Source: a virus. From it: DNA of 30,131 nucleotides. Of this stretch, positions 1,075-24,830 are shown one piece after another (within the stretch, counting starts at the first letter, position 1; the number at the start of each line of letters is the position of its first letter). The notes beneath the pieces were generated by a model. The model saw only the letters and a program-made list of their open reading frames with translations, was not told where the DNA came from and did not search any database. The stretch is taken from positions 1-30,131 of IMG/VR virus record IMGVR_UViG_3300027749_000371. One strand, given 5' to 3'. The translations under genes and the position numbers were made by a program.

Positions 1075-4000
1075 ATGAATTTAAAAGAACTACACTCTTT
1101 CAAAATGTCGGATGCAGTCAAGTTTCACGACCAACTGAATCCATTACTTTTTCACGGGCAGCATTTAGACTCGACAGTAAGAAAAAAGCTATTAGTTATA
1201 GCAGAAGATTTTTTAAACGAGTTAGGAATTAGTCAATTTAAAGTTAAAGATGTTACGATATCAGGGTCTAATGCTGCCTATTCTTACACCCCTCACAGCG
1301 ATATTGACTTGCACGTTATTGTAGATATGGGTCAATTTGACAATGATGAAGTATATCAAGAGTTGTTCAATGCTAAAAAGTCTGTGTATAATGACAAACA
1401 TGATATCAAAATAAAAGACATCCCTATAGAACTCTATGTTCAACCAGCAAGCGACCCACATGTATCATTGGGCGAATACAGTATATTGAATGATCATTGG
1501 ATTAAGTTTCCACTAAAGCGCAGAGCAAACTTTGATCAAAACAATACTAGAGCCAAATATGAACAGTTAAAGCGTTTGTGCCAAACTGCATTAAGAGAAC
1601 GTGACCTCAAGAAAGTCGGTAGAGTAATTAAAAAGATAAAACAATATCGCAAAGCAGGGTTAGCAAACTTTGGCGAATTTGGCCCTGAAAATCTAGCATA
1701 CAAGATGGTAAAGAATCAGGAATACTTACAGAAATTATATGATTTGCGCGACAAACTGCATAGTGCAAAGTTAAGCTTTGAGACTATGTATCAGAATCCT
1801 AAAAAGATTGCAGAGACAATAGGCCCGCACGAAAAAAAAGAATTAGAAATGATGCTGCATGGTTCTAAGCCTGCTGCACTTATAGATTTTGATGAACTAA
1901 AGCAACCCAATTGGCAAGACGCTATACAAAAGAATAACTGGACAGTAGAAAAAGTAGACATAGCCAGTATACCTACGCGCCCCGGAACTATATGGGCTAG
2001 CTATAAACCACTGATTATCGTCAGCAAAGATCCTAACGTAGCTAAAAGTATTAAACGACTAATGCTCAACACTTTAGGTAAGTACCCAAATGGGGCTCCA
2101 GAATCTTATCATATTCAATTGGGTAAACTATTGGGATACGGTGAAGAAGATATTGAGCATTTCTTAAACCATACTGGGCATGAGAAACCTAAAATCTCAG
2201 AAGAAAATACTACATTGCAAAAGATATATGGAAATAAACTTCCTAAGCGCGATGAAACTTCCAAAGAAAAAGTATTATACCATGTTACGACTACCGCCAA
2301 TATACCTCAAATAAAAAAAAGAGGTATACTACCATTACAACCCAGTAATTGGGTACAGGCAGGCACAGGCGAGCGTTACGGTGGAGGGGAGATATTCGCA
2401 TTTGACAATCTTAGAGATGCTCAGAGCTGGGCTGGCAAAATGGATTGGGAAAAGAATAAGAAGATGGGCAGTGGCAAGATATCAATTATCAAGTTTACTG
2501 ATGATAGTGATTGGGAAAAAGATCCTGCGCCATTGGTTGCCTATCAAGGCACAGCATTAAAGAAGCACGGAAGAGTCAAGCCTAAAAATATAATAGATGC
2601 ACAACCGTTTACTACAGACATAGCTAGAAGTTTAGCTTCACCAAACACGATTACAGAAGAAAATACTACATTGCAAAAGATATATGGAAATAAACTTCCT
2701 AAGCACGATGAAATTTTTTGGAACTATGTTTCCTCAGAGGATTTAAAGAAACAGCTATTAATAAAAACCATGTCTAAGCATTCAGTAATGCATCATCTGC
2801 TTGGTCAATACAGAGTTGAGCATATTGATGATCTTGTAGATAGACTAGATGACGAGCAAGTAGAAACTTTAGGGCAATATATGCTTGATCCTAATTTGTC
2901 TAACTATATTATTGTTGTAGATGACAATAAGATAATTGACGGTCAGCACCGTGCGCTTGCCGCTGCAATTCAAGGATCTCCTATTAGGTATGTAGACTTA
3001 TCAGATGAACTAAAAGAAGCGAATATAGATAACAACACGGGTTGGGGGGCAGTAGGTAACAATAGAGAAGTAAATTATTTTGGGTTACGAGTTAATATGA
3101 CTCCAAGTACTTTCTTAAAGTTAGCCGCCCCATTAAATGACGAGCCTAATCAGGAAATGATAGATTATATACAAAAAGGTGGAGCGATTGGTTCTCCGCA
3201 TCTTTACATTACAGTGCCCGAAGAATGGGAAAGCGGTGACTTTAGTATGCCAGCGAGAGTTTCCGGGCATGAGGGTCGTCATCGCATGAAGTCTATATTT
3301 AAGATTGAAGGTGACAAGCCTGTAGAAGTTCACTTGTTTCCGTACGGATACAGAAACAGACACCTAACACCCGAGATTGTCAACAAACTAAACAAATCGC
3401 TATTTGCAGAAAAAAGTCGCAATGTGGTGCTTGGTCCTCTATTCACCGAAGAGGTGACAGAAGGACTTAAATTTAATAGCCGTAAAAGAGACAACTCATC
3501 CAAAGATTTAGCAAAAAAAATCAAAGACGGGGAAGGGTTGACAGAAGTTCATGCAAAGACTCCCGCAATAGGCATCAACGTCAGAAGCGACAGTGATATT
3601 GATTATGCTGATTTAATTGTTGATGGTAAAAAGAAATACGAATCCAGAAACACCAATAGCCTCAGACCGTACGTTGGGAAAACAGTTGGCATTATTAGAA
3701 CCGGTAGCGGACCCGCAGTTGCAATTGGTCAAGCGACAATAGGAGAACCTATAGTAGCAGATGAAAAAAAGTTTAATAAACTTAGAAAGAAGCATCTAGT
3801 TCCAAAAGGTAGTAAGTTTGATATTAATAGCAATGGCACAAAATATTTGTATCCAATCATCGATCCAGTACGCTGGGATAATGAAAAACCAATAAAGCAT
3901 AGAGGTATCGTTTCTAGGAAAATACAAGAGCAAGGTGTGGCGGAGGGGCTGGATCAAGATGTACCTTCAGTATTATACCATGCTACTTATAAACCAAGAT

Positions 4001-4893
4001 TGAAAAGTATTCAATTGAAAGGGCTAGGGTCTGGAGGCAGGCGTAATTGGGAAGATAGCCAGCGTGGTGTAGTATATCTTGCACTAGATCCTGATGTAGC
4101 AGAAAGTTATGCTGAAACCAGTGACATGGTTCCTGATGAATGGTTGGATCAAATTGTCATGCTTAAAATTTCTACAGCAGGGCTAGATCCAAACAAGTTT
4201 GGCATTGACAGCAATGTGCAAGACAATGCAGGTGATACTATAGAATATCATGGAGTCATTCCAGTCGGTAATATTTCCTTATACAAGCAAGGTGTGGCGG
4301 AAGCTTCTGGTTACATACCTAATGCCAAACAGCGAAATGATCCGCGATGGTGCATGGCCTTGACAGTTGATGTAAAACCTGATAGTATAAAGAAGAATGC
4401 TAAAGCATTTGGGTTTAAGACAAGTAGAGCAGGAATCCCCCCGCTCGCCAATCCTAACGGTAAAGTGAATGAAGTAAAACGCATAGGTAATATTTCACGT
4501 CCAACACGCGCAGACTGGGAAGATTGGGATTTTAGTGAAAAACGCAAATATTTTTCTTTTGTGTCTCACTCAGGTGCCACCGTAGATGTATACAAAGATA
4601 AAACAGGAATTTTAGCTGCAATTGATGGTAAGGTTCTTGCAAACTTAGATGGCGAGTTTCAAAATGCTAAATTTTTTAAAATTGATAGCGTAGCAAGCAT
4701 ACCAAGTCTAGATTTGTATGCTAGTGAATTATACAAAGCACTCATACTAGACAAAAACCTGACTTTAATTTCCGGAGATCAGCAAACATACGCGGGTTCA
4801 AAAATTTGGGATAGGTTGAGCAAAGTTCCAAATATTACCGTCGAAGAGGTCAATGATCTGATGGTCGCACATAAAACGTTGACTTCTCCCTAA
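1075..4893 (+). CDS. Multidomain effector-like polyprotein (NTase, ART-like x2, ParB-like x2, ASCH)
   Basis: The protein has 1272 residues. Domains in order: a nucleotidyltransferase fold (about 40-235) with G64-S65 and D76-x-D78; a phage domain of unknown function (about 275-368); an ADP-ribosyltransferase-like domain (about 385-525, LYHVTT with H403); a ParB-like domain (IIDGQHRA, D622-R626); a second His/Arg-rich domain (GHEGRHR, 731-737) that resembles ParB folds; an ASCH/PUA-like domain (about 830-950, KKKYESRNT at 852); a second ART-like domain (about 963-1068, VLYHAT with H969, then YLALDPDVAESYA); and a C-terminal domain (1158-1272) shared with the gene at 11000-12055. Linkers recur: ENTTLQKIYGNKLPK twice, and QGVAE at 953-957 and 1072-1076. 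These linkers resemble T4 gp21 prohead-protease sites. T4 packages and injects the ART Alt, so I infer a head-packaged, protease-cut effector string. Catalysis by any domain is unproven. Confidence 0.7.
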   Translation: MNLKELHSFKMSDAVKFHDQLNPLLFHGQHLDSTVRKKLLVIAEDFLNELGISQFKVKDVTISGSNAAYSYTPHSDIDLHVIVDMGQFDNDEVYQELFNAKKSVYNDKHDIKIKDIPIELYVQPASDPHVSLGEYSILNDHWIKFPLKRRANFDQNNTRAKYEQLKRLCQTALRERDLKKVGRVIKKIKQYRKAGLANFGEFGPENLAYKMVKNQEYLQKLYDLRDKLHSAKLSFETMYQNPKKIAETIGPHEKKELEMMLHGSKPAALIDFDELKQPNWQDAIQKNNWTVEKVDIASIPTRPGTIWASYKPLIIVSKDPNVAKSIKRLMLNTLGKYPNGAPESYHIQLGKLLGYGEEDIEHFLNHTGHEKPKISEENTTLQKIYGNKLPKRDETSKEKVLYHVTTTANIPQIKKRGILPLQPSNWVQAGTGERYGGGEIFAFDNLRDAQSWAGKMDWEKNKKMGSGKISIIKFTDDSDWEKDPAPLVAYQGTALKKHGRVKPKNIIDAQPFTTDIARSLASPNTITEENTTLQKIYGNKLPKHDEIFWNYVSSEDLKKQLLIKTMSKHSVMHHLLGQYRVEHIDDLVDRLDDEQVETLGQYMLDPNLSNYIIVVDDNKIIDGQHRALAAAIQGSPIRYVDLSDELKEANIDNNTGWGAVGNNREVNYFGLRVNMTPSTFLKLAAPLNDEPNQEMIDYIQKGGAIGSPHLYITVPEEWESGDFSMPARVSGHEGRHRMKSIFKIEGDKPVEVHLFPYGYRNRHLTPEIVNKLNKSLFAEKSRNVVLGPLFTEEVTEGLKFNSRKRDNSSKDLAKKIKDGEGLTEVHAKTPAIGINVRSDSDIDYADLIVDGKKKYESRNTNSLRPYVGKTVGIIRTGSGPAVAIGQATIGEPIVADEKKFNKLRKKHLVPKGSKFDINSNGTKYLYPIIDPVRWDNEKPIKHRGIVSRKIQEQGVAEGLDQDVPSVLYHATYKPRLKSIQLKGLGSGGRRNWEDSQRGVVYLALDPDVAESYAETSDMVPDEWLDQIVMLKISTAGLDPNKFGIDSNVQDNAGDTIEYHGVIPVGNISLYKQGVAEASGYIPNAKQRNDPRWCMALTVDVKPDSIKKNAKAFGFKTSRAGIPPLANPNGKVNEVKRIGNISRPTRADWEDWDFSEKRKYFSFVSHSGATVDVYKDKTGILAAIDGKVLANLDGEFQNAKFFKIDSVASIPSLDLYASELYKALILDKNLTLISGDQQTYAGSKIWDRLSKVPNITVEEVNDLMVAHKTLTSP
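2198..2257 (+). repeat. 60-bp direct repeat, copy 1
   Basis: This copy matches 2654-2713 at 59 of 60 positions; the only difference is G versus A near the 3' end (AAGCGC versus AAGCAC). Both copies are in the same reading frame, 456 bp (152 codons) apart, and encode the linker around ENTTLQKIYGNKLPK. Together they bracket the first ADP-ribosyltransferase-like module. Confidence 0.95.
2654..2713 (+). repeat. 60-bp direct repeat, copy 2
   Basis: This is the second copy of the repeat at 2198-2257, with one mismatch. In-frame recombination between the copies would precisely delete or duplicate a 152-codon module without breaking the gene. Confidence 0.95.
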
Positions 4894-10466: not shown

Positions 10467-11000
10467 ATGACTATGGTAAACTATGAGATTATTAATGTAG
10501 GTTCAGCCCCAAACGACGGTCAGGGCGATCCGCTACGAACTGCGTTTGAGAAGATCAATAATAACTTTGCTGTCACTTTTAACACTGGTATATTCAATAC
10601 TACTAAAGTTGTGACCTTTGGTAATACTTCTCAGACTATATTCAGTTGGCCAGCAAATAACTTTACACAGGCTACGTTTCAGATCAATTCAACTGACATC
10701 ACGACCAATACTCAGAGCGTCACCATAAACGCCACACTTAGTCCCGATCTTTCAACAGTTCAATTTACTGCCCAAAATACATTGTTTTTAGGTGATCCTA
10801 TTACTCAATATGACATGAACGTAGATTTATCAGGTAACGTAAATCTTAATGTAGATCCGTTTGTTACTGGTCAGTTAAACCACATTGTACAGTTCCAAGT
10901 TATACCTGCTAATGCCAATATTGCTCTCTCACTAGTACTAACTCAGAATACTGGGGTAGCTCTAGCAACCAACAATCCTGGTCAAATATTGGTGACTTGA
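10467..11000 (+). CDS. Virion structural protein with a tail-fibre/adaptor-type N-terminus
   Basis: This 177-residue protein starts MTMVNYEIINVGSAPNDG and continues GQGDPLRTAFEKINNNF. This block recurs at the N-termini or in the repeats of phage tail and appendage proteins. The rest is Thr/Asn/Val-rich and beta-structured (TINATLSPDLSTVQFTAQN). No enzymatic motif is present. It sits first in the operon that carries the capsid-targeted proteins, and its stop overlaps the next ATG by one base (TGATG). Its role as a fibre accessory or adaptor is inferred. Confidence 0.7.
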   Translation: MTMVNYEIINVGSAPNDGQGDPLRTAFEKINNNFAVTFNTGIFNTTKVVTFGNTSQTIFSWPANNFTQATFQINSTDITTNTQSVTINATLSPDLSTVQFTAQNTLFLGDPITQYDMNVDLSGNVNLNVDPFVTGQLNHIVQFQVIPANANIALSLVLTQNTGVALATNNPGQILVT

Positions 11001-12055
11001 TGAAACCTAGTGAATTTATATTTGAGTCAGGCTGGCGTAGGCCAATCAGTGCCCGAGACCAAATTCGGATTGACGCATACAAGGCTAAGAAAAGAAATCA
11101 AACCGGACCAAACATTCCTGATCGGATAACTACCAATCCTAAAAAAGTAAAAAGGACAGCCGATCATCTAATTCAGAAAATGCAAGATCAGGAAAAGCCA
11201 AAACTTGACGAATCCGATGTAATCCCGGGACCGTGGCCAGGAAGTGTTGCCACTGCAAAAAATGAAGAGCTAGCAACTATAGCAAGAAAAGAAGGTAAGT
11301 TGTTAGCTCTTTATCGTCCCTACTCCGAAGGATATACAAAGTATATAAAGTCCATGGTAGCTAAAAATAAACATAGTCAAATATATGTTGAAGATTTTAT
11401 TGCAGGTTGGACTGAAGGTAGAAAAGTCAAAATTAAATCAGAAGAAGAATATTATAAAATAAAGTTGAAGCTATTACCCGACGGTAGCATCGCTGAGTTT
11501 GAAGATGTAGATCCCATCACCGAAGTGCATAGGTTTGATAGACACGGTACCAATCTTAACCCTGAACCTATCAGTGATTATTTCGTGGACTCCAAAAAAT
11601 TGTTCAAATTTACTAGCCACACCGGCGAAAGAATCACAGTATATCGTTCTGGGGCATTTGGCGATGAGTTTGCCGCGGCCGATTCAAACGACATGTTACA
11701 AATGTCGGTAAGCGGGGAATGGGATAATCACTACTACGATGAAACGGCAAATAAAAAATCCACATTTTGGATAGATAAGCTAGAATCAATTAGCAATAAT
11801 CGAAAGGTTTGGGCTAGTGAGTTTTATGCTCAGTTGATACTTAAACTTAATATGGTATTGGTTTCTGGACAAGATTTAAGTGACAGCGGTGCAGCAGTGT
11901 GGTCTAGATTGACCAAAGATCCCCGTCTGCAAACTTATATATTTGATGCACATAATAAAAAAATATGGAATGTACCTACCAACAAAAGAGCAGAATTTAT
12001 AGCCGGTGTCAATAACCGCAACCTTCGTTATGTAGCCACAAAGAGAAGCAAGTAA
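11000..12055 (+). CDS. Probable head-internal protein with capsid-targeting N-terminus
   Basis: This 351-residue protein begins MKPSEFIFESGWRR. The first nine residues fit the T4 capsid-targeting sequence (T4 IPIII: MKTYQEFIAE), with Glu9 as the expected prohead-protease cut. A second site-like motif, KLDES, lies at Glu71. The C-terminal 160 residues are homologous to the end of the 1272-residue polyprotein: TSHTGERITVYRS aligns with VSHSGATVDVYKD, and both share [WY]ASE.Y..LIL and SG......G..[VI]W.RL.K.P. This region could be a GNAT-like acetyltransferase fold, but I cannot confirm it. I start at ATG 11000 rather than TTG 10997 because it restores the targeting motif. Inferred fate: packaged, trimmed and injected. 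Confidence 0.7.
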   Translation: MKPSEFIFESGWRRPISARDQIRIDAYKAKKRNQTGPNIPDRITTNPKKVKRTADHLIQKMQDQEKPKLDESDVIPGPWPGSVATAKNEELATIARKEGKLLALYRPYSEGYTKYIKSMVAKNKHSQIYVEDFIAGWTEGRKVKIKSEEEYYKIKLKLLPDGSIAEFEDVDPITEVHRFDRHGTNLNPEPISDYFVDSKKLFKFTSHTGERITVYRSGAFGDEFAAADSNDMLQMSVSGEWDNHYYDETANKKSTFWIDKLESISNNRKVWASEFYAQLILKLNMVLVSGQDLSDSGAAVWSRLTKDPRLQTYIFDAHNKKIWNVPTNKRAEFIAGVNNRNLRYVATKRSK

Positions 12056-12885
12056 TGCGTGCCAAAGACTTTATATTTGAAGGTGATGTTATTAGGTTTC
12101 CTAAGAAGAAAACCAACCTAGAGAAATACTCCGATGCGTTTTCTAAACAACACAATGATGAACATCGGTATGGTGTAGGACATATACCGTGTGATTATTG
12201 TGGCGAAGTCAATTGTGACTATGACTGTGATGGTAGTCAAGCTGACGGAGAATTGGATGAGAGCTTTAAGAAGAAAGCTGCTGCTGCCCTAGTTGGATTA
12301 GGGTTATTAGCAACACCAACGGCGATACAACATACTGGGATAACACCAAAGCAGCAATCAACTAAACCAGTCGGGGCGTTGAATCGTATAGAAAGTATGC
12401 TGAAAAGTGTAGCTAATCAGGCTAACATCGAAGGTCATGAGCTAGCACAGTTTTTAGGACAGGCTGCTCACGAAACAGGTGATTTTGATCAAATGAATGA
12501 AATTGGCGGTAGACAGTATCTTATACATAAGTATTGGGACAATGTAGTTACCCGCAATGCATTAGGTAACATTTATCCAGAAGATGCTATACGCTATAGG
12601 GGTAGGGGGTTTATACAATTGAGCGGCAGAGGTAACTATGATAAAATGGGACAGAAGTTAAACATAGATTTAGTAAAGAATCCTAAATTAGCGGCAAGAC
12701 CTGATATTGCGGCTAAGATACTAGTGCTTTGGTTCAAGGACAATATAGAGCCTAAGGTGACAGACTTTACAAATACTCAGGAAGTCACGAATAAAATTAA
12801 CCCGCACGACAAGCCCGAATCTAGATTAGATCGCGAGAAGAAGTACCAAAAGTATAAAGACCTATTAGGGCTGCAAGATAAATAA
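12055..12885 (+). CDS. GH19 chitinase/lysozyme-family muralytic enzyme with capsid-targeting-like N-terminus
   Basis: The protein has 276 residues. The catalytic domain (about 100-276) is GH19-like: QAAHETGDF with Glu140, then YRGRGFIQLSGRGNY (about 181-195), and a final KYKDLLGL. Such domains cut peptidoglycan in phage endolysins. The N-terminus is unusual. MRAKDFIFEGD fits a T4 capsid-targeting sequence (Glu9). A Cys cluster (C46, C49, C54, C58) may bind zinc, and a second cleavage-like site GELDES has Glu69. Right after it comes FKKKAAAALVGLGLLAT, a signal-peptide- or signal-anchor-like segment. The start overlaps the upstream stop (TAATG). Both an endolysin role and a packaged entry enzyme are possible. 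Confidence 0.85.
   Translation: MRAKDFIFEGDVIRFPKKKTNLEKYSDAFSKQHNDEHRYGVGHIPCDYCGEVNCDYDCDGSQADGELDESFKKKAAAALVGLGLLATPTAIQHTGITPKQQSTKPVGALNRIESMLKSVANQANIEGHELAQFLGQAAHETGDFDQMNEIGGRQYLIHKYWDNVVTRNALGNIYPEDAIRYRGRGFIQLSGRGNYDKMGQKLNIDLVKNPKLAARPDIAAKILVLWFKDNIEPKVTDFTNTQEVTNKINPHDKPESRLDREKKYQKYKDLLGLQDK
12877..12884 (+). promoter_or_regulatory. T4-type late promoter (GATAAATA)
   Basis: GATAAATA followed by ATACT and then ATG at 12890 puts the expected start of transcription on the A of the ATG. The box overlaps the last codons and stop of the GH19 gene. Confidence 0.65.
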
Positions 12886-12889
12886 TACT

Positions 12890-13270
12890 ATGAGAGCAAG
12901 AGAATTCATCAATGAAGGAAATGTTGACATACCTGCATGTGGAGAAGATTTTGCAGAAGAGCATATGGCCGCTAGCCCGGGCGCAGTCAGTATGCCAGAC
13001 ATTAGTAACAACAAATCGTCCGGTAGTCCATATAAAGGTTGGCGTTTTGGTATAGCAATGGCAGGAGCTCCCGATTTTCCAACTCCGCCAGTTGGAGCAA
13101 TGGCGGGAGATCCTTTACTAACTTGCTATACAGATGTAGATATGGAAATCATTCAATCCGCCCGTGACTTTACTGGTGCAGGTAGAATTAACAAACTGAA
13201 CAAACAAACAAGTCATGAAATCAAGAGCGTTAATAAAGCAAGTCCAGTGAAGGGATTCAAGGGCTACTAA
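12890..13270 (+). CDS. Small probable head-internal protein with capsid-targeting N-terminus
   Basis: This 126-residue protein begins MRAREFINEGNVD, the best match in the window to the T4 capsid-targeting/gp21 site pattern (cut expected after Glu9). The remainder is Gly/Pro/Ala-rich with little predicted helix (AMAGAPDFPTPPVGAMAGD) and ends in a basic tail (SHEIKSVNKASPVKGFKGY). No enzyme motif is seen. It has its own late promoter directly before the ATG and no Shine-Dalgarno sequence. A short packaged protein like T4 IPI-IPIII is the natural analogy, but a minor structural role is possible. Confidence 0.65.
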   Translation: MRAREFINEGNVDIPACGEDFAEEHMAASPGAVSMPDISNNKSSGSPYKGWRFGIAMAGAPDFPTPPVGAMAGDPLLTCYTDVDMEIIQSARDFTGAGRINKLNKQTSHEIKSVNKASPVKGFKGY

Positions 13271-20330: not shown

Positions 20331-22463
20331 ATGAGTAACAAGTCAGGCCAATCGGAACTAGTCAAAAGTCCATACACAAAAACACACTTTGTTAATCAGC
20401 AACAGATAGATGAATTTGTGGCTTGCTGTGATCAAGTTACTGGTCACTTATATTTCATGGATAACTTCTTTTACATACAACATCCTACTAAGGGTAGCAT
20501 GGTGTATCACCCGTGGGATTATCAAAAGCGGCTGATACATACATATCATAACTATAGGTTCAGTATCTCTCTGATGCCTAGACAGTCAGGCAAGTGTTTT
20601 GGAATAAATACTACAGTTAAAATAAAAAATATTCACACCGGTAAGGTTGAAGAAATAACTATAGGAAAATTTTATGAACGATTTAGTAACTTGTCTAATT
20701 TGCTCAACAGAGATGAAGGAATTGCACTCTCATCTATTCAGAAAACACAATATGACAGTGACCAAATACAAAGAAGTCTATCCGAAACAAGTGCTTCAAG
20801 AATGTCTGAACTTTCTGAATCAGTAGAAAGAAAATTTATAGAGTCATACGAAATAACCGATTATGAAATAACCACTGACACAGGATGGAAACCAATAACA
20901 CACCTCCATCGTACTATTCCGTACAATGTTTGGGAAATTAAAACTGTAACAGGATTAATTTTGCAATGCGCCGACACTCATATTTTGTTTGATGGCTCAA
21001 TGAATCAAGTTTTTGCAAAAGACTTAACTATTGGTTCGCATATTCATACTGTTAACGGAATAGAAAAAATTAAACATATTAGAGAAACAAATAATATTGA
21101 AAATATGTTCGATTTAACTATTAGAGATGAAAATCACAGATTTTATTCAAATGGTATTTTAAGTCATAATTCTACAAGTGCTGCCGGATACTTGTTGTGG
21201 TACGCTATGTTTGTACCAGACTCTACTATATTAATTGCAGCACACAAATATCAAGGTGCTCAAGAAATCATGCAGCGTATTAGGTATGCTTATGAAAACT
21301 GCCCTAATCACATTAAAGCGGGGGTGACAACCTATAACAAGGGCAGTTTAGACTTTGAAAACGGTAGTCGTATTGTTTCGGCAACTACTACTGAAAACAC
21401 GGGTCGTGGTATGTCTATTACGCTACTTTATTTGGACGAGTTCGCATTCGTGCGACCAACTATCGCCGAACAATTCTGGACTTCAATTACTCCTACACTG
21501 AGTACAGGTGGTAAAGCAATCATTACTTCAACCCCAAATTCGGACGAAGATCAATTTGCTCTTATTTGGAAAGGGGCAAACAAAACAGAAGATGAGTTTG
21601 GTAATATAACAGAAGTTGGAATAAACGGATTTAAAGCGTATCGCGCAGATTGGAGAGAACAGCCCGGAAGAGATGATAAATGGGCAGAAGAAATGAAGGC
21701 TCAGCTAGGACAAGATAAGTTCAACCGTGAAATAAATTGCCAATTTATCATCGCCGATGAAACGCTGATCAATCCAAATACTTTGATAATGTTAGAAGGT
21801 ATAGAACCTATTAATAGAATGGGTCAAATCAGATGGTATAAACAACCAACTAAGGGTAATATTTACGTAGTTGGATTAGATCCAAGCTTGGGTACTGGTG
21901 GAGATCCGGCTGCTATAGAAATCTTTGAAGCAGATACTACAACACAAATTGGGGAATGGAAACACAACAAGACTGATATTCCTAGTCAGATTAAGCTGTT
22001 AGCAGAAATAAACAAATATATTGTAGAAAGAACGAATGAACCTAATAACCTATATTATTCACTAGAAAATAACTCTATAGGTGAGGCAGCAATTATTTCA
22101 CTAAACGAATACGGAGAAGCTAATATTCCTGGAATATTTATTAGCGAACCCGGTAAAAAGCGTAAGGGATTCAATACAACCAATAAGAGTAAATTAGCAG
22201 CTTGTGCTAAGTTTAAAACTCTGCTAGAAAGTAAAAAACTAACAATTTATAGTCGCAGCTTAATATCTGAGTTAAAGACCTTTGTAGCCTCAGGTGGAAG
22301 TTATGCTGCCAAAATAGGGGATACTGACGATCTTATTATGGCTACATTGCTAATTATTAGGATTTTTAAGCTGTTAAGTGATTACCACGTAGATTTAGAG
22401 TCGCAAATGCGTGACCATGCGGAAGTTAAGATGCCTTTGCCCTTCTTTGCAGTCTTTGGTTAG
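20331..22463 (+). CDS. terL: Large terminase subunit (T4 gp17-like), interrupted by an intein
   Basis: The 710-residue precursor is the motor ATPase/nuclease that packages DNA into proheads. The ATPase P-loop would read PRQSGKSTSAAGY but is split after K88 by a 192-residue intein (residues 89-280); splicing leaves a 518-residue enzyme. Walker B is LLYLDEF (D369, E370 in precursor numbering), followed by a coupling motif TSTPN. The C-terminal nuclease shows VVGLDPSLGTGGD, SLENNSIG and GDTDDLIMA, which supply the acidic metal ligands. The mature length is somewhat below the 610 residues of T4 gp17, and no small subunit is recognisable next to it. The late box is 5 nt from the ATG. Confidence 0.95.
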   Translation: MSNKSGQSELVKSPYTKTHFVNQQQIDEFVACCDQVTGHLYFMDNFFYIQHPTKGSMVYHPWDYQKRLIHTYHNYRFSISLMPRQSGKCFGINTTVKIKNIHTGKVEEITIGKFYERFSNLSNLLNRDEGIALSSIQKTQYDSDQIQRSLSETSASRMSELSESVERKFIESYEITDYEITTDTGWKPITHLHRTIPYNVWEIKTVTGLILQCADTHILFDGSMNQVFAKDLTIGSHIHTVNGIEKIKHIRETNNIENMFDLTIRDENHRFYSNGILSHNSTSAAGYLLWYAMFVPDSTILIAAHKYQGAQEIMQRIRYAYENCPNHIKAGVTTYNKGSLDFENGSRIVSATTTENTGRGMSITLLYLDEFAFVRPTIAEQFWTSITPTLSTGGKAIITSTPNSDEDQFALIWKGANKTEDEFGNITEVGINGFKAYRADWREQPGRDDKWAEEMKAQLGQDKFNREINCQFIIADETLINPNTLIMLEGIEPINRMGQIRWYKQPTKGNIYVVGLDPSLGTGGDPAAIEIFEADTTTQIGEWKHNKTDIPSQIKLLAEINKYIVERTNEPNNLYYSLENNSIGEAAIISLNEYGEANIPGIFISEPGKKRKGFNTTNKSKLAACAKFKTLLESKKLTIYSRSLISELKTFVASGGSYAAKIGDTDDLIMATLLIIRIFKLLSDYHVDLESQMRDHAEVKMPLPFFAVFG
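20595..21170 (+). other. Mini-intein inside the terminase P-loop
   Basis: This in-frame, 192-codon element begins with Cys (CFGINTTVKIKN) and ends HN before Ser (GILSHN followed by ST). These are the hallmark splice-junction residues: Cys1, penultimate His, terminal Asn and +1 Ser. Block B is LQCADTHILF, with the conserved His but Ala instead of Thr three residues earlier. Blocks F/G are FDLTIRDENHRFYSNG. No LAGLIDADG or HNH homing endonuclease is visible; the middle is a hydrophilic spacer. The element is visibly more AT-rich than the flanking terminase coding sequence. Confidence 0.92.
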
Positions 22464-22484: not shown

Positions 22485-24830
22485 ATGGCAATCAATCAAG
22501 AATCCTTCAATACCGGACTGTACGATCTTTTAAAAACAAGAGGGTACAATCCAACCCCAATCGACTCAAAAGGGCAAAATACTCCTGTACCCCAAAATGC
22601 TGATATTTTTAAATTTGACTTTAAGAAAGGGCCAAATACAACCGAAGATTATGGCCCGGTTTGGGTCACGATTGATAAAGCTGCTAATTTAATTGTATAC
22701 TTTGATGACGATATAGCTGATAGTGGAGATGACAATACTTCGGGTACAGAGTTCAGTGATAGCTGGCCTAGCTTATTAAATGTATTGAAAAGATGGGCTA
22801 TGAGAAAGCAGTTAGGATTTGAACTCAAAAACAGAGATCACTTAGGAAGCGATATGGCACAAAGAGAGTATACAAAAAAGAAAGAAACTATAGGTGAAAG
22901 CTATCATTCGTTAGGAAATAAAGCTAGCTATAATGATGCAGTACCTAAAGTAAAAATTATCATTCAGCATACCCGTAAAATAGAGGAAGGTGAAAAGCGT
23001 TTTCGTAATGTTGAAAGAATCTTTGTTGAAAATTCTAATGGCGAAAGATTTGCTATTCCAACAAAGCGTCCAGGAATTGCTAAAGTATATGCTCGTCATG
23101 TAGCAGAAGGTGGTACACCGTATGATGATAAGGGCAAGCACATTACATCATTAGTAGAAGAATATACAAAGATGGCAGGATTTGTGCGCGCCACACGCAA
23201 CTCTACATTTAACGAATCAGCACAACAACTAATTAACGAAGGTCTTAATCATTACCAATCATTGCGAGAAACACTAAGCAGAATGATTGGCTATAAAGGT
23301 TATAATGCTTACTTTGAAAGCTGGACTCCAACACTTATGGAGACCGAAGGTGAAGAAATGAATTTAAATGAATTATTTGTAAAAGAAACTCTAGATCCTA
23401 GAATTGAAAGCGTAATGCCAATTCTTAAGAAACTAAGTAAGAACATTAAAGAAGTAACCGAAGTAAAAGAATTAGAAGAGTGGGCTAACACACTGATTGA
23501 TGAAGCTACCGATCTTAAGACAATTCCAGAAGAAAAGGAAGTTATCGCCTTACCCCCAGCAAAGGAATTATATAAAGAATACTTGCATAGCATGGATTTT
23601 GAAAAAGACAATGTGAGTAAAACTAACCCAGAATGGGAAAACTATTTTATATCTGGCGCGTTGAACTTTCTAAGCAAGAAAGGAATACCCTTAAATACTA
23701 GAACTCGGTTAGCTAAAGATATGCTTACTGTATTTGACCCAAGTGCTGCTAAAAAACTTCCCTTTAAAGAAAACTTCATTAATATGGCACCACAAGCTGT
23801 GGCGGAAGAGAGCAACGATCATGAAGAAATATATGGTATAAATTTAGAACCATTTATTGATTATGTTAAACGTAAGTCTGGAAAATTAGGTGCTGCTAAG
23901 GCTATGGATAATGTCAAGTATTCGTTGGAAGTATATCATAACAAACAGGGCGAAGAACTTAACAAAATATTAAATGCTGTAAAAATGGCAGCATCTGGAT
24001 TAGGCGAAGCCGATGAAAGTCACACCGATGAAGAAAATAGTATGGCTAGTGACAATCTTAACAAAATGGCTAAAGCGTCTACTAAAATAAATAAAAAAGT
24101 TAAGGGTATGGGGAATAAAGGTAGTTTAGAGCCATGGCAACAACAATTAGTTGCCACAGCAGCCGACAAAGTAGATGCTGTTTATCATAGCCTAGATGAT
24201 GAAGAATTAGATGAAGGTTGGAATGATCACTTGGATCCAGAAACTAATCTAGATGATTATATTGAAAGAATGTACGACCGTGCTGACCGAGACAGAAAAG
24301 AAAAAAAAGAAAAAGAATTACTTGATAAAGAAGAGCCACCGTTTATTGGTGGTCATGCAGTCACCACACATAAAGACGAATACGGTAATGTAATAAAGCA
24401 TGTTGCTAAACATCTTGCTCGTAAAGCAATGAAAGATCAAGAAGATAAAGAACTTGATGATGAATTAGATGAGAGCAAATGGCGGTATGGCTGTGGTAAA
24501 AAGATGTCTGCATTTGTGCCTAAGGGTTATGGATACAAAGAAATTCCAGTAGAATGCGGTAGTACCGCTTATGATGGAAGCGTAAATCAATGTGAAAAAT
24601 GTGAGATAACAAAAGCTCAACCGCGTGTTCATGATTACGGTGATGCCGAACATATGGATGACGACGATATTGAAGAAGGCTTAGACGCAAATCAAAAGCG
24701 TGTAGGTCAATTAGGACCAACAACACCGGTTGGTAAGAATGAAAAGAACTTGCGTAATAAGGGTTTATTTTTTGGTGCAGAAAGCGTTGATCCGGAGCTA
24801 GCAAGAATCAAAAAACTATCGGGCAATTAA
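22485..24830 (+). CDS. Large acidic probable virion protein with C-terminal four-Cys cluster
   Basis: This 781-residue protein follows the terminase gene by 21 nt. The N-terminal part (MAINQESFNTGLYDLLKTRG) is followed by long charged helical regions. The C-terminal 120 residues hold C670, C691, C703 and C706 (GCGKK, VECGS, CEKC), a zinc-ribbon-like arrangement. Prohead-protease-like motifs occur at INEG (Glu252), QAVAE (Glu441, encoded by TGTGGCGGA as in the polyprotein linkers), LDEG (Glu577) and LDES (Glu663, just before the Cys cluster). I do not recognise a T4 counterpart. The motifs and late promoter suggest a head-associated protein that is processed during assembly; this is inference. 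Confidence 0.7.
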   Translation: MAINQESFNTGLYDLLKTRGYNPTPIDSKGQNTPVPQNADIFKFDFKKGPNTTEDYGPVWVTIDKAANLIVYFDDDIADSGDDNTSGTEFSDSWPSLLNVLKRWAMRKQLGFELKNRDHLGSDMAQREYTKKKETIGESYHSLGNKASYNDAVPKVKIIIQHTRKIEEGEKRFRNVERIFVENSNGERFAIPTKRPGIAKVYARHVAEGGTPYDDKGKHITSLVEEYTKMAGFVRATRNSTFNESAQQLINEGLNHYQSLRETLSRMIGYKGYNAYFESWTPTLMETEGEEMNLNELFVKETLDPRIESVMPILKKLSKNIKEVTEVKELEEWANTLIDEATDLKTIPEEKEVIALPPAKELYKEYLHSMDFEKDNVSKTNPEWENYFISGALNFLSKKGIPLNTRTRLAKDMLTVFDPSAAKKLPFKENFINMAPQAVAEESNDHEEIYGINLEPFIDYVKRKSGKLGAAKAMDNVKYSLEVYHNKQGEELNKILNAVKMAASGLGEADESHTDEENSMASDNLNKMAKASTKINKKVKGMGNKGSLEPWQQQLVATAADKVDAVYHSLDDEELDEGWNDHLDPETNLDDYIERMYDRADRDRKEKKEKELLDKEEPPFIGGHAVTTHKDEYGNVIKHVAKHLARKAMKDQEDKELDDELDESKWRYGCGKKMSAFVPKGYGYKEIPVECGSTAYDGSVNQCEKCEITKAQPRVHDYGDAEHMDDDDIEEGLDANQKRVGQLGPTTPVGKNEKNLRNKGLFFGAESVDPELARIKKLSGN

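Follow-up and report, generated by a model that had tools for sequence, protein, structure and literature searches.

Three consecutive phage genes with a shared T4-like start tag, predicted to encode packaged and protease-trimmed cargo, and a modular polyprotein on the same fragment

What do three neighbouring phage proteins have in common when they share nothing but their first nine residues? The window analysed here, a virus record of 30,131 nucleotides in IMG/VR (IMGVR_UViG_3300027749_000371), is a fragment without head genes, and it encodes on the plus strand three consecutive ORFs, P1, P2 and P3, which begin MKPSEFIFES, MRAKDFIFEG and MRAREFINEG, each with Glu at residue 9 (P1 being counted from the ATG at 11000; were the mechanical TTG start at 10997 used instead, it would gain one residue). 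Outside this tag, their mutual similarity is undetectable. The stop codon of P1 overlaps the start of P2 (TAATG) and only 4 nt separate P2 from P3, so that the three look like one translation unit. A preliminary description had taken the N-termini for capsid-targeting signals like those of the T4 internal proteins, and the locus for one dedicated to packaged, injected proteins with a two-step trim. The ORFs and their tags are as follows, a slash marking a predicted cut here and throughout.

11000–12055, plus strand: P1, tagged ORF of 351 aa (MKPSEFIFE/S), an orphan apart from its C-terminal module
11000–11026, plus strand: P1 tag, putative capsid-targeting sequence, predicted cut after Glu9
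12055–12885, plus strand: P2, tagged GH19 (chitinase/lysozyme) ORF of 276 aa (MRAKDFIFE/G); Pfam PF00182, 7e-10; PHROG endolysin
12055–12081, plus strand: P2 tag, predicted cut after Glu9
12890–13270, plus strand: P3, tagged protein of 126 aa (MRAREFINE/G), from a family of about 125 aa that is often found in tandem
12890–12916, plus strand: P3 tag, predicted cut after Glu9

The shared start is not a product of base composition. A scan of the window with the DNA pattern ATG-MRN-N6-GAN-TTY-ATH-NNN-GAR (M-[KR]-x-x-[DE]-F-I-x-E as protein) returned exactly three matches, all of them the starts of P1, P2 and P3, against a mean of 0.01 in the shuffled window, where none of 100 shuffles reached three; the observation of three consecutive ORFs with Glu9 is thus borne out. 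Its likeness to the T4 signal also held when the motif M.{2,4}[DE]F[ILVM].E was compared with 1251 ATG starts of T4 ORFs of at least 50 aa (the T4 map being covered except for roughly its first 11 kb), among which it selected only ipII, ipIII and gp61.1. In T4, the ten N-terminal residues of IPIII are enough for packaging; targeting depends mainly on residues 4 and 7 and processing on residues 8 and 10, and the gp21 protease cleaves after L/I-x-E (PMC9026906). Residues F6, I7 and E9 of the tag correspond to F7, I8 and E10 of T4, and the tag ends in [LI]xE, the cut motif.

The genome-wide scan for such starts that had been proposed shows the motif to be widespread in IMG/VR. The pattern M[RS]Ax[DE]FIxE was found in at least 120 IMG/VR stretches, 130 of the 144 matches listed lying at plausible gene starts, whereas a control pattern with F and I swapped was found in 34 stretches, with 10 matches at gene starts; in 16 large related records the tag pattern gave 32 matches and the same pattern written backwards none. 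Synonymous codons within the tag follow background usage, with the exception of the second codon (R2), which indicates that selection acts on the protein. The 96 tagged proteins of at least 150 aa, a set for which the tag itself was the selection criterion, have a mean column identity of 5% and include GNAT, GH19, ASCH, ART, ParB and Kinase-PolyVal domains. The close relative L002 has three consecutive tagged ORFs at the equivalent position, and relatives hold tagged genes at several places. Variants of the P1 tag (MKPSDFLTE) occur in two loci, L081 and L301; relatives of P1 itself were not found in IMG/VR. The strict pattern is absent from Sinorhizobium phage Phosso and Agrobacterium phage Atu_ph07, the nearest named relatives by TerL, both of which have the protease discussed below. 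From these sequence comparisons, the tag is real, widespread and modular.

The P3 family, gathered by similarity of the body, carries the tag on 51 of 52 members; 40 of these loci came from searches with the tag pattern itself, but all 12 obtained in other ways carry it too. No relative of the family was found in PHROG or among isolate phages; the predicted fold of P3, three helices (pLDDT 84, 44 sequences), has no match in the PDB.

The terminase places the fragment. The closest named relatives of the window's TerL are those of Phosso and Atu_ph07, followed by the PA5oct group, and the window is therefore assigned to a huge T4-type myovirus. The order methyltransferase–TerL–virion protein–ssb–recombinase is found again across many IMG/VR records, often with tagged genes nearby, and two records, G013 and G008, combine the same TerL neighbourhood with a TerL 84% identical to that of the window. 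Both of these syntenic records encode Peptidase_S77, the T4-type prohead protease; because head genes are missing from the window, we infer its protease from these relatives. Peptidase_S77 is present in all seven tag-bearing large records of at least 191 kb that were examined (one of which, G014, was fetched through the control pattern and also holds a tag match), and the major capsid proteins and proteases of these large records have N-terminal [LIV]xE sites of their own. The window also encodes, after TerL, a protein whose PA5oct homologue was marked as structural by ESI-MS/MS, which backs the picture of packaged cargo, if indirectly.

22485–24830, plus strand: head-associated protein of 781 aa (phrog_13484), its N-terminal domain conserved, its C-terminus variable and rich in sites

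Taken together, the T4 proteome test, the fusion of the tag to unrelated domains, its conservation at the protein level and the prohead protease of syntenic relatives make a T4-like capsid-targeting sequence the best reading of the tag, and one that the sequences support well.

The preliminary description had further noted a second LDES in two of the three proteins, and this was found as described, at Glu71 of P1 and Glu69 of P2; P3 has no second site. The corresponding features are listed here.

11204–11215, plus strand: P1 LDE/S site (Glu71), followed by DVIPGPWPG
12082–12261, plus strand: Cys-rich segment of 60 residues in P2, bounded by both predicted cuts, 83% identical to L002
12253–12264, plus strand: P2 LDE/S site (Glu69), LEE/G in L002 and LNE/G in L043
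12262–12330, plus strand: Sec-like signal segment of P2, SFKKKAAAALVGLGLLATPTAIQ, beginning at the predicted cut
12415–12738, plus strand: GH19 domain of P2

A two-step trim as a general rule for tagged proteins is rejected, a second site being present in 13 of 71 tagged and 252 of 1423 other ORFs, without excess in the tagged ones. Some [LI]xE[GSA] falls at residues 56–88 in 9.7% of related ORFs of at least 250 aa and, the [LI]xE motif being short and common, the second site of P1 may be due to chance. For P2, the two-step trim fares better: its site is kept through different residues among relatives and directly precedes a signal-like segment. The notion of a plain propeptide of about 60 residues does not survive the comparison with L002, in which no other part of the protein is as well conserved as the segment bounded by the two cuts (83% identity, against 59% for the catalytic domain); rather than a piece to be discarded, this segment probably represents a separate product or recognition module. 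As for P1, the sequence after its LDE/S, DVIPGPWPG, may be set beside a joint of L032 (of the type described below), which reads QGMAEG-EVIKGPWSG.

Immediately behind LDE/S in P2 begins the Sec-like SFKKKAAAALVGLGLLATPTA. Scored by hydropathy and by eye, such signal-like segments are a feature of the class: by eye, 15 of 17 cargo-type GH19 ORFs have a Sec- or Tat-like segment (the exceptions being L102 and L135), which in 13 cases is immediately preceded by an [LIVM]xE site, whereas none of the eight untagged GH19s listed has one. The tagged P2-type GH19s and the separate untagged class occur together in L135 and L076. In L027, L245 and L257 a twin-arginine segment follows the tag directly; L027 begins MRAVEFIAE/IDRRGFLGALGAGAMAAAGVPAQA, with DRRGFLGALGAGAMAAAGVPAQA as the twin-arginine segment. 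Over all cargo ORFs, a signal-like segment follows 35 of 2680 [LIVM]xE sites against 52 of 10,900 control sites with D, Q, K, N, T or S (p = 1e-5), and no such difference between E and control residues was seen in non-cargo ORFs. The second cut in P2 may thus uncover an export signal, which the precursor would keep masked.

Elsewhere in the window lies a much larger ORF that resembles cargo of another build, with modules in the order NTase, KptA/ART-like, ParB-like, an unnamed module, ASCH, a second ART/KptA-like module, a tail and a P1-like module, the last of which links it to P1.

1075–4893, plus strand: modular polyprotein of 1272 aa
2198–2260, plus strand: first copy of a 63-nt direct repeat, on the upstream side of the ART-like module, encoding the SEE/NTTLQKIYGNKLPK region
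2654–2716, plus strand: second copy (97%) of the 63-nt direct repeat, on the downstream side of the ART-like module, encoding TEE/NTTLQKIYGNKLPK
3931–3948, plus strand: QGVAE/G joint, residues 953–958, between ASCH and the second ART-like module
4288–4305, plus strand: QGVAE/A joint, residues 1072–1077, preceding the SGYIP tail module
11582–11929, plus strand: C-terminal module of P1, residues 195–310, 32% identical to polyprotein residues 1153–1254 (BLASTP E = 7e-10)

The polyprotein and its relatives differ in their sets of modules (NTase, GIY-YIG, ASCH, GNAT, ART/KptA-like, ParB-like), and its ASCH module is found as a separate tagged ORF (MRATEFIVEN) in L012 and L013. Its own N-terminus, MNLKELHSF, has no clear tag, which makes its packaging less certain, and a domain search found no peptidase domain in it. 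Homology breaks lie near [VLIM]xE[GAS] in 461 of 1500 and 526 of 1474 cases, more than twice the roughly 200 of random placement, and do not cluster at D or K control sites. The commonest joint, QGVAEG, was counted 20 times, whereas permutations of its residues occur 0.017 times on average. Its DNA is conserved beyond the code and with sharp edges: in loci not fetched by joint DNA, Ala is GCG in 35 of 38 cases (background 7.6%) and Val is GTG in 32 of 38 (background 19.6%), the former figure ruling out codon bias as the source of the joint. At least 120 stretches of IMG/VR contain the exact 18-mer, and each of the 154 sites among the matches listed is read in the QGVAE frame within an ORF of at least 100 aa, so that a freely placed repeat or promoter is also excluded. 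In cellular genomes the exact joint was found in 26 stretches in 257 Gb, counted irrespective of reading frame; it is absent from Phosso, Atu_ph07, T4 and three records of 635–735 kb. Among 231 non-redundant joints, 54 pairs agree upstream only and 37 downstream only, the similarity shifting at the joint. The simplest reading of these sequences, and one that we infer from them, is that the joint is where recombination exchanges the cassettes; the 63-nt repeat flanking the ART-like module is a further trace of recombination. Tag and joint can occur within one ORF (e.g., in L185 and L301), an association significant in the whole-genome set only, and Peptidase_S77 is encoded by four of seven IMG/VR records picked via the joint (three of the five of at least 250 kb). 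Some joint-bearing ORFs begin MFVDDLFD or MFVNELFS, starts that presumably resemble the N-terminus of T4 Alt, which we take as a lead only.

We therefore propose, with a probability of about 0.78, that P1, P2 and P3 are tag-loaded, protease-trimmed and injected cargo of a T4-type huge myovirus, that a second cut in P2 frees a signal, and that the 1272-aa ORF is a cargo polyprotein. The nine-residue tag would bind the scaffold core as a capsid-targeting sequence, and the protein would thereby be incorporated into the prohead; the gp21-type (S77) protease would then cut after Glu9 within the [LI]xE motif, and the trimmed cargo would be injected alongside the DNA. In P2, a second cut after Glu69 would expose the Sec-like signal, so that an enzyme made and packed in one cell could reach the cell wall by export only once it has been delivered into the next. 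The polyprotein would play the same role, its modules separated by a cut site of the same type, QGVAE/G. Packaging, cleavage, injection and export are thus all predicted from sequence. The idea of a dedicated cargo locus is supported as far as capsid targeting is concerned and has to be widened, given the other tagged loci of relatives and the cargo-like look of the 1272-aa ORF.

Other readings of the same data differ in their odds. That the common N-terminus merely reflects descent of three paralogues, with the second sites a coincidence, is highly improbable: the shortness of [LI]xE and the want of a general second-site excess in tagged ORFs would suit it, yet similarity between P1, P2 and P3 stops at the tag, ASCH occurs tagged as a standalone ORF and untagged inside polyproteins, relatives show the tag on new bodies, and the P2 site is kept by different residues. 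It is also quite unlikely that the tag is a genuine protein signal with another task, addressing proteins to a phage compartment or the host membrane, or serving degradation or stability. Conservation by itself leaves the destination of a protein unsaid, and the strict tag is missing from the closest named relatives by TerL; against this, the motif matches the T4 capsid-targeting sequence, both processing positions included, singles out internal proteins among T4 starts, and ends in a cut motif whose cutting enzyme is encoded by related phages.

Were the proteins packaged and trimmed, they could still serve head assembly or DNA condensation instead of acting as injected effectors, which we consider unlikely. 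Heads do assemble more slowly in T4 IPIII mutants (PMC9026906), and P3 belongs to a small tandem family without an enzyme signature; nevertheless, most of the cargo is made up of enzyme domains of the kind typical of conflict and host take-over, which differ from phage to phage, and several cargoes have export-signal-like segments, useless within a head. Somewhat doubtful, finally, is the view that the hydrophobic segment after the LDE/S of P2 is a membrane anchor or flexible linker and not an export signal. The segment is rich in Ala and Gly, and only Sec-like in P2 itself, as that view would have it, whereas L027, L245 and L257 have twin-arginine segments instead and nothing similar is found in the eight untagged GH19s listed.

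Among known systems, the T4 internal proteins IPI–IPIII, injected inhibitors of GmrSD enzymes (PMC12373910), are similar in their short N-terminal tag ending F-I-x-E (IPII and IPIII), in their unrelated bodies, in the several genes per phage and in the gp21-type protease of the phage group. The tag described here is one residue shorter and mostly MRAxEFIxE, its cargo includes large enzymes (GH19, ART, GNAT, ASCH, kinase) and in some cases bears a further cut site with a Sec/Tat-like signal behind it, and packaging, which is established for the T4 proteins, is here predicted from sequence. T4 Alt, a packaged ADP-ribosyltransferase trimmed by gp21 (PMC9026906), parallels the ART-type cargo; unlike Alt, the ART-like domains here are polyprotein modules or stand behind the tag, with no single dedicated enzyme. 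In phiKZ and SPN3US, many head and ejection proteins are cut after Glu by a gp21-like protease, with the specificity S/A-x-E in phiKZ, and the excerpted text of PMC9026906 reports for them neither a uniform nine-residue start tag nor modular joints.

Closest to the 1272-aa ORF are the polyvalent proteins (Iyer, Burroughs and Aravind 2017, PMC5512222), which are multidomain, mosaic, inferred to be packaged and likened to polyproteins, and whose domains include lysozyme, GNAT, kinase and ParB. The 1272-aa ORF and its relatives likewise carry several conflict-type domains per chain in mosaic arrangement, and a Kinase-PolyVal domain is found among the tagged proteins. Release of polyvalent domains was ascribed to embedded peptidase domains, described for some members, and the word "linker" was not found in the text of PMC5512222; the modules here are instead bounded by short sites of prohead-protease type, with a near-identical DNA joint. 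Judged by its sequence, the window polyprotein appears to be of the polyvalent kind, released at such short sites and not by an embedded peptidase.

A tentative extension, to which we assign slightly less than even odds, is that these phages carry interchangeable, in-frame cargo cassettes linked by a single short DNA sequence with the core AGCAAGGTGTGGCGGAAGG, which as DNA would be the place of recombination and as protein (QGVAE/G) the prohead-protease site at which the cassettes come apart during head maturation, and that in some cassettes a Sec/Tat signal becomes N-terminal only after the cut, routing the product to the envelope of the next host. A literature search that covered few subscription papers found no mention of QGVAEG and no description of export signals behind prohead-protease-type sites, and on packaged polyproteins of huge phages it gave nothing beyond the works cited. 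If the reading of the tag is true, a nine-residue pattern would list predicted packaged proteins of huge phages from sequence, many unknown families included. The cassette joints would represent a concrete genetic system for the swapping of effectors, explaining how the arsenals of these phages diversify, and exposing a signal by cleavage would offer a simple means of delaying the secretion of an enzyme until the next cell.

Unrelated cargo modules, putatively packaged proteins, switch exactly at the joint DNA CAAGGTGTGGCGGAAGGC in many huge-phage contigs. It codes for QGVAEG and occurs twice in the window (3931-3948 and 4288-4305) and in L234-L350 of the contigs compared, with conservation that extends to its synonymous positions. 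The 1272-aa modular polyprotein of the window also carries a direct repeat, whose upstream copy is absent from the protein of the close relative L002:

window 2198-2260 and 2654-2716, 63-nt direct repeat, copies 97% alike, on both sides of the KptA/ART-like module

Behind many of the putative T4-like capsid-targeting N-termini (tags) come a basic run (e.g., KKKRKK) and a Gly/Tyr-rich stretch (YFFPGYAYYGG...GGDGGGGES), as seen in L014, L039, L076, L079, L086, L087, L132, and others; together they form another N-terminal segment, besides the tag, that turns up repeatedly in cargo. The stretches between predicted cut sites repeatedly hold small modules rich in Cys and resembling zinc ribbons (window 12082-12261; L012 1350; L005 12619). 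Some cassettes start with a twin-arginine motif (RRGFLKGLGAA...), with a predicted prohead-protease cut after VAE, VSE, or LEE within a few residues:

L339 7893-9377, twin-arginine-start cassette
L342 1537-4548, the same
L312 5751-8642, the same
L218 15686-17341, the same

The TerL of the window (20331-22463) has an intein-like insertion in its Walker A region (GKC...HNS).

L135 (8344-9633 and 9868-10497) and L076 each encode two GH19 paralogues as separate ORFs on the same contig, one with the tag and one lacking it; the pair are probably delivery and lysis enzymes. Among T4 starts, the only one found to fit the tag motif besides ipII and ipIII is that of gp61.1:

L232 7967-8131, T4 gp61.1, 54 aa, starting MKTFKEFIKED

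This gp61.1 may be a packaged protein of T4 that has gone unrecognised.
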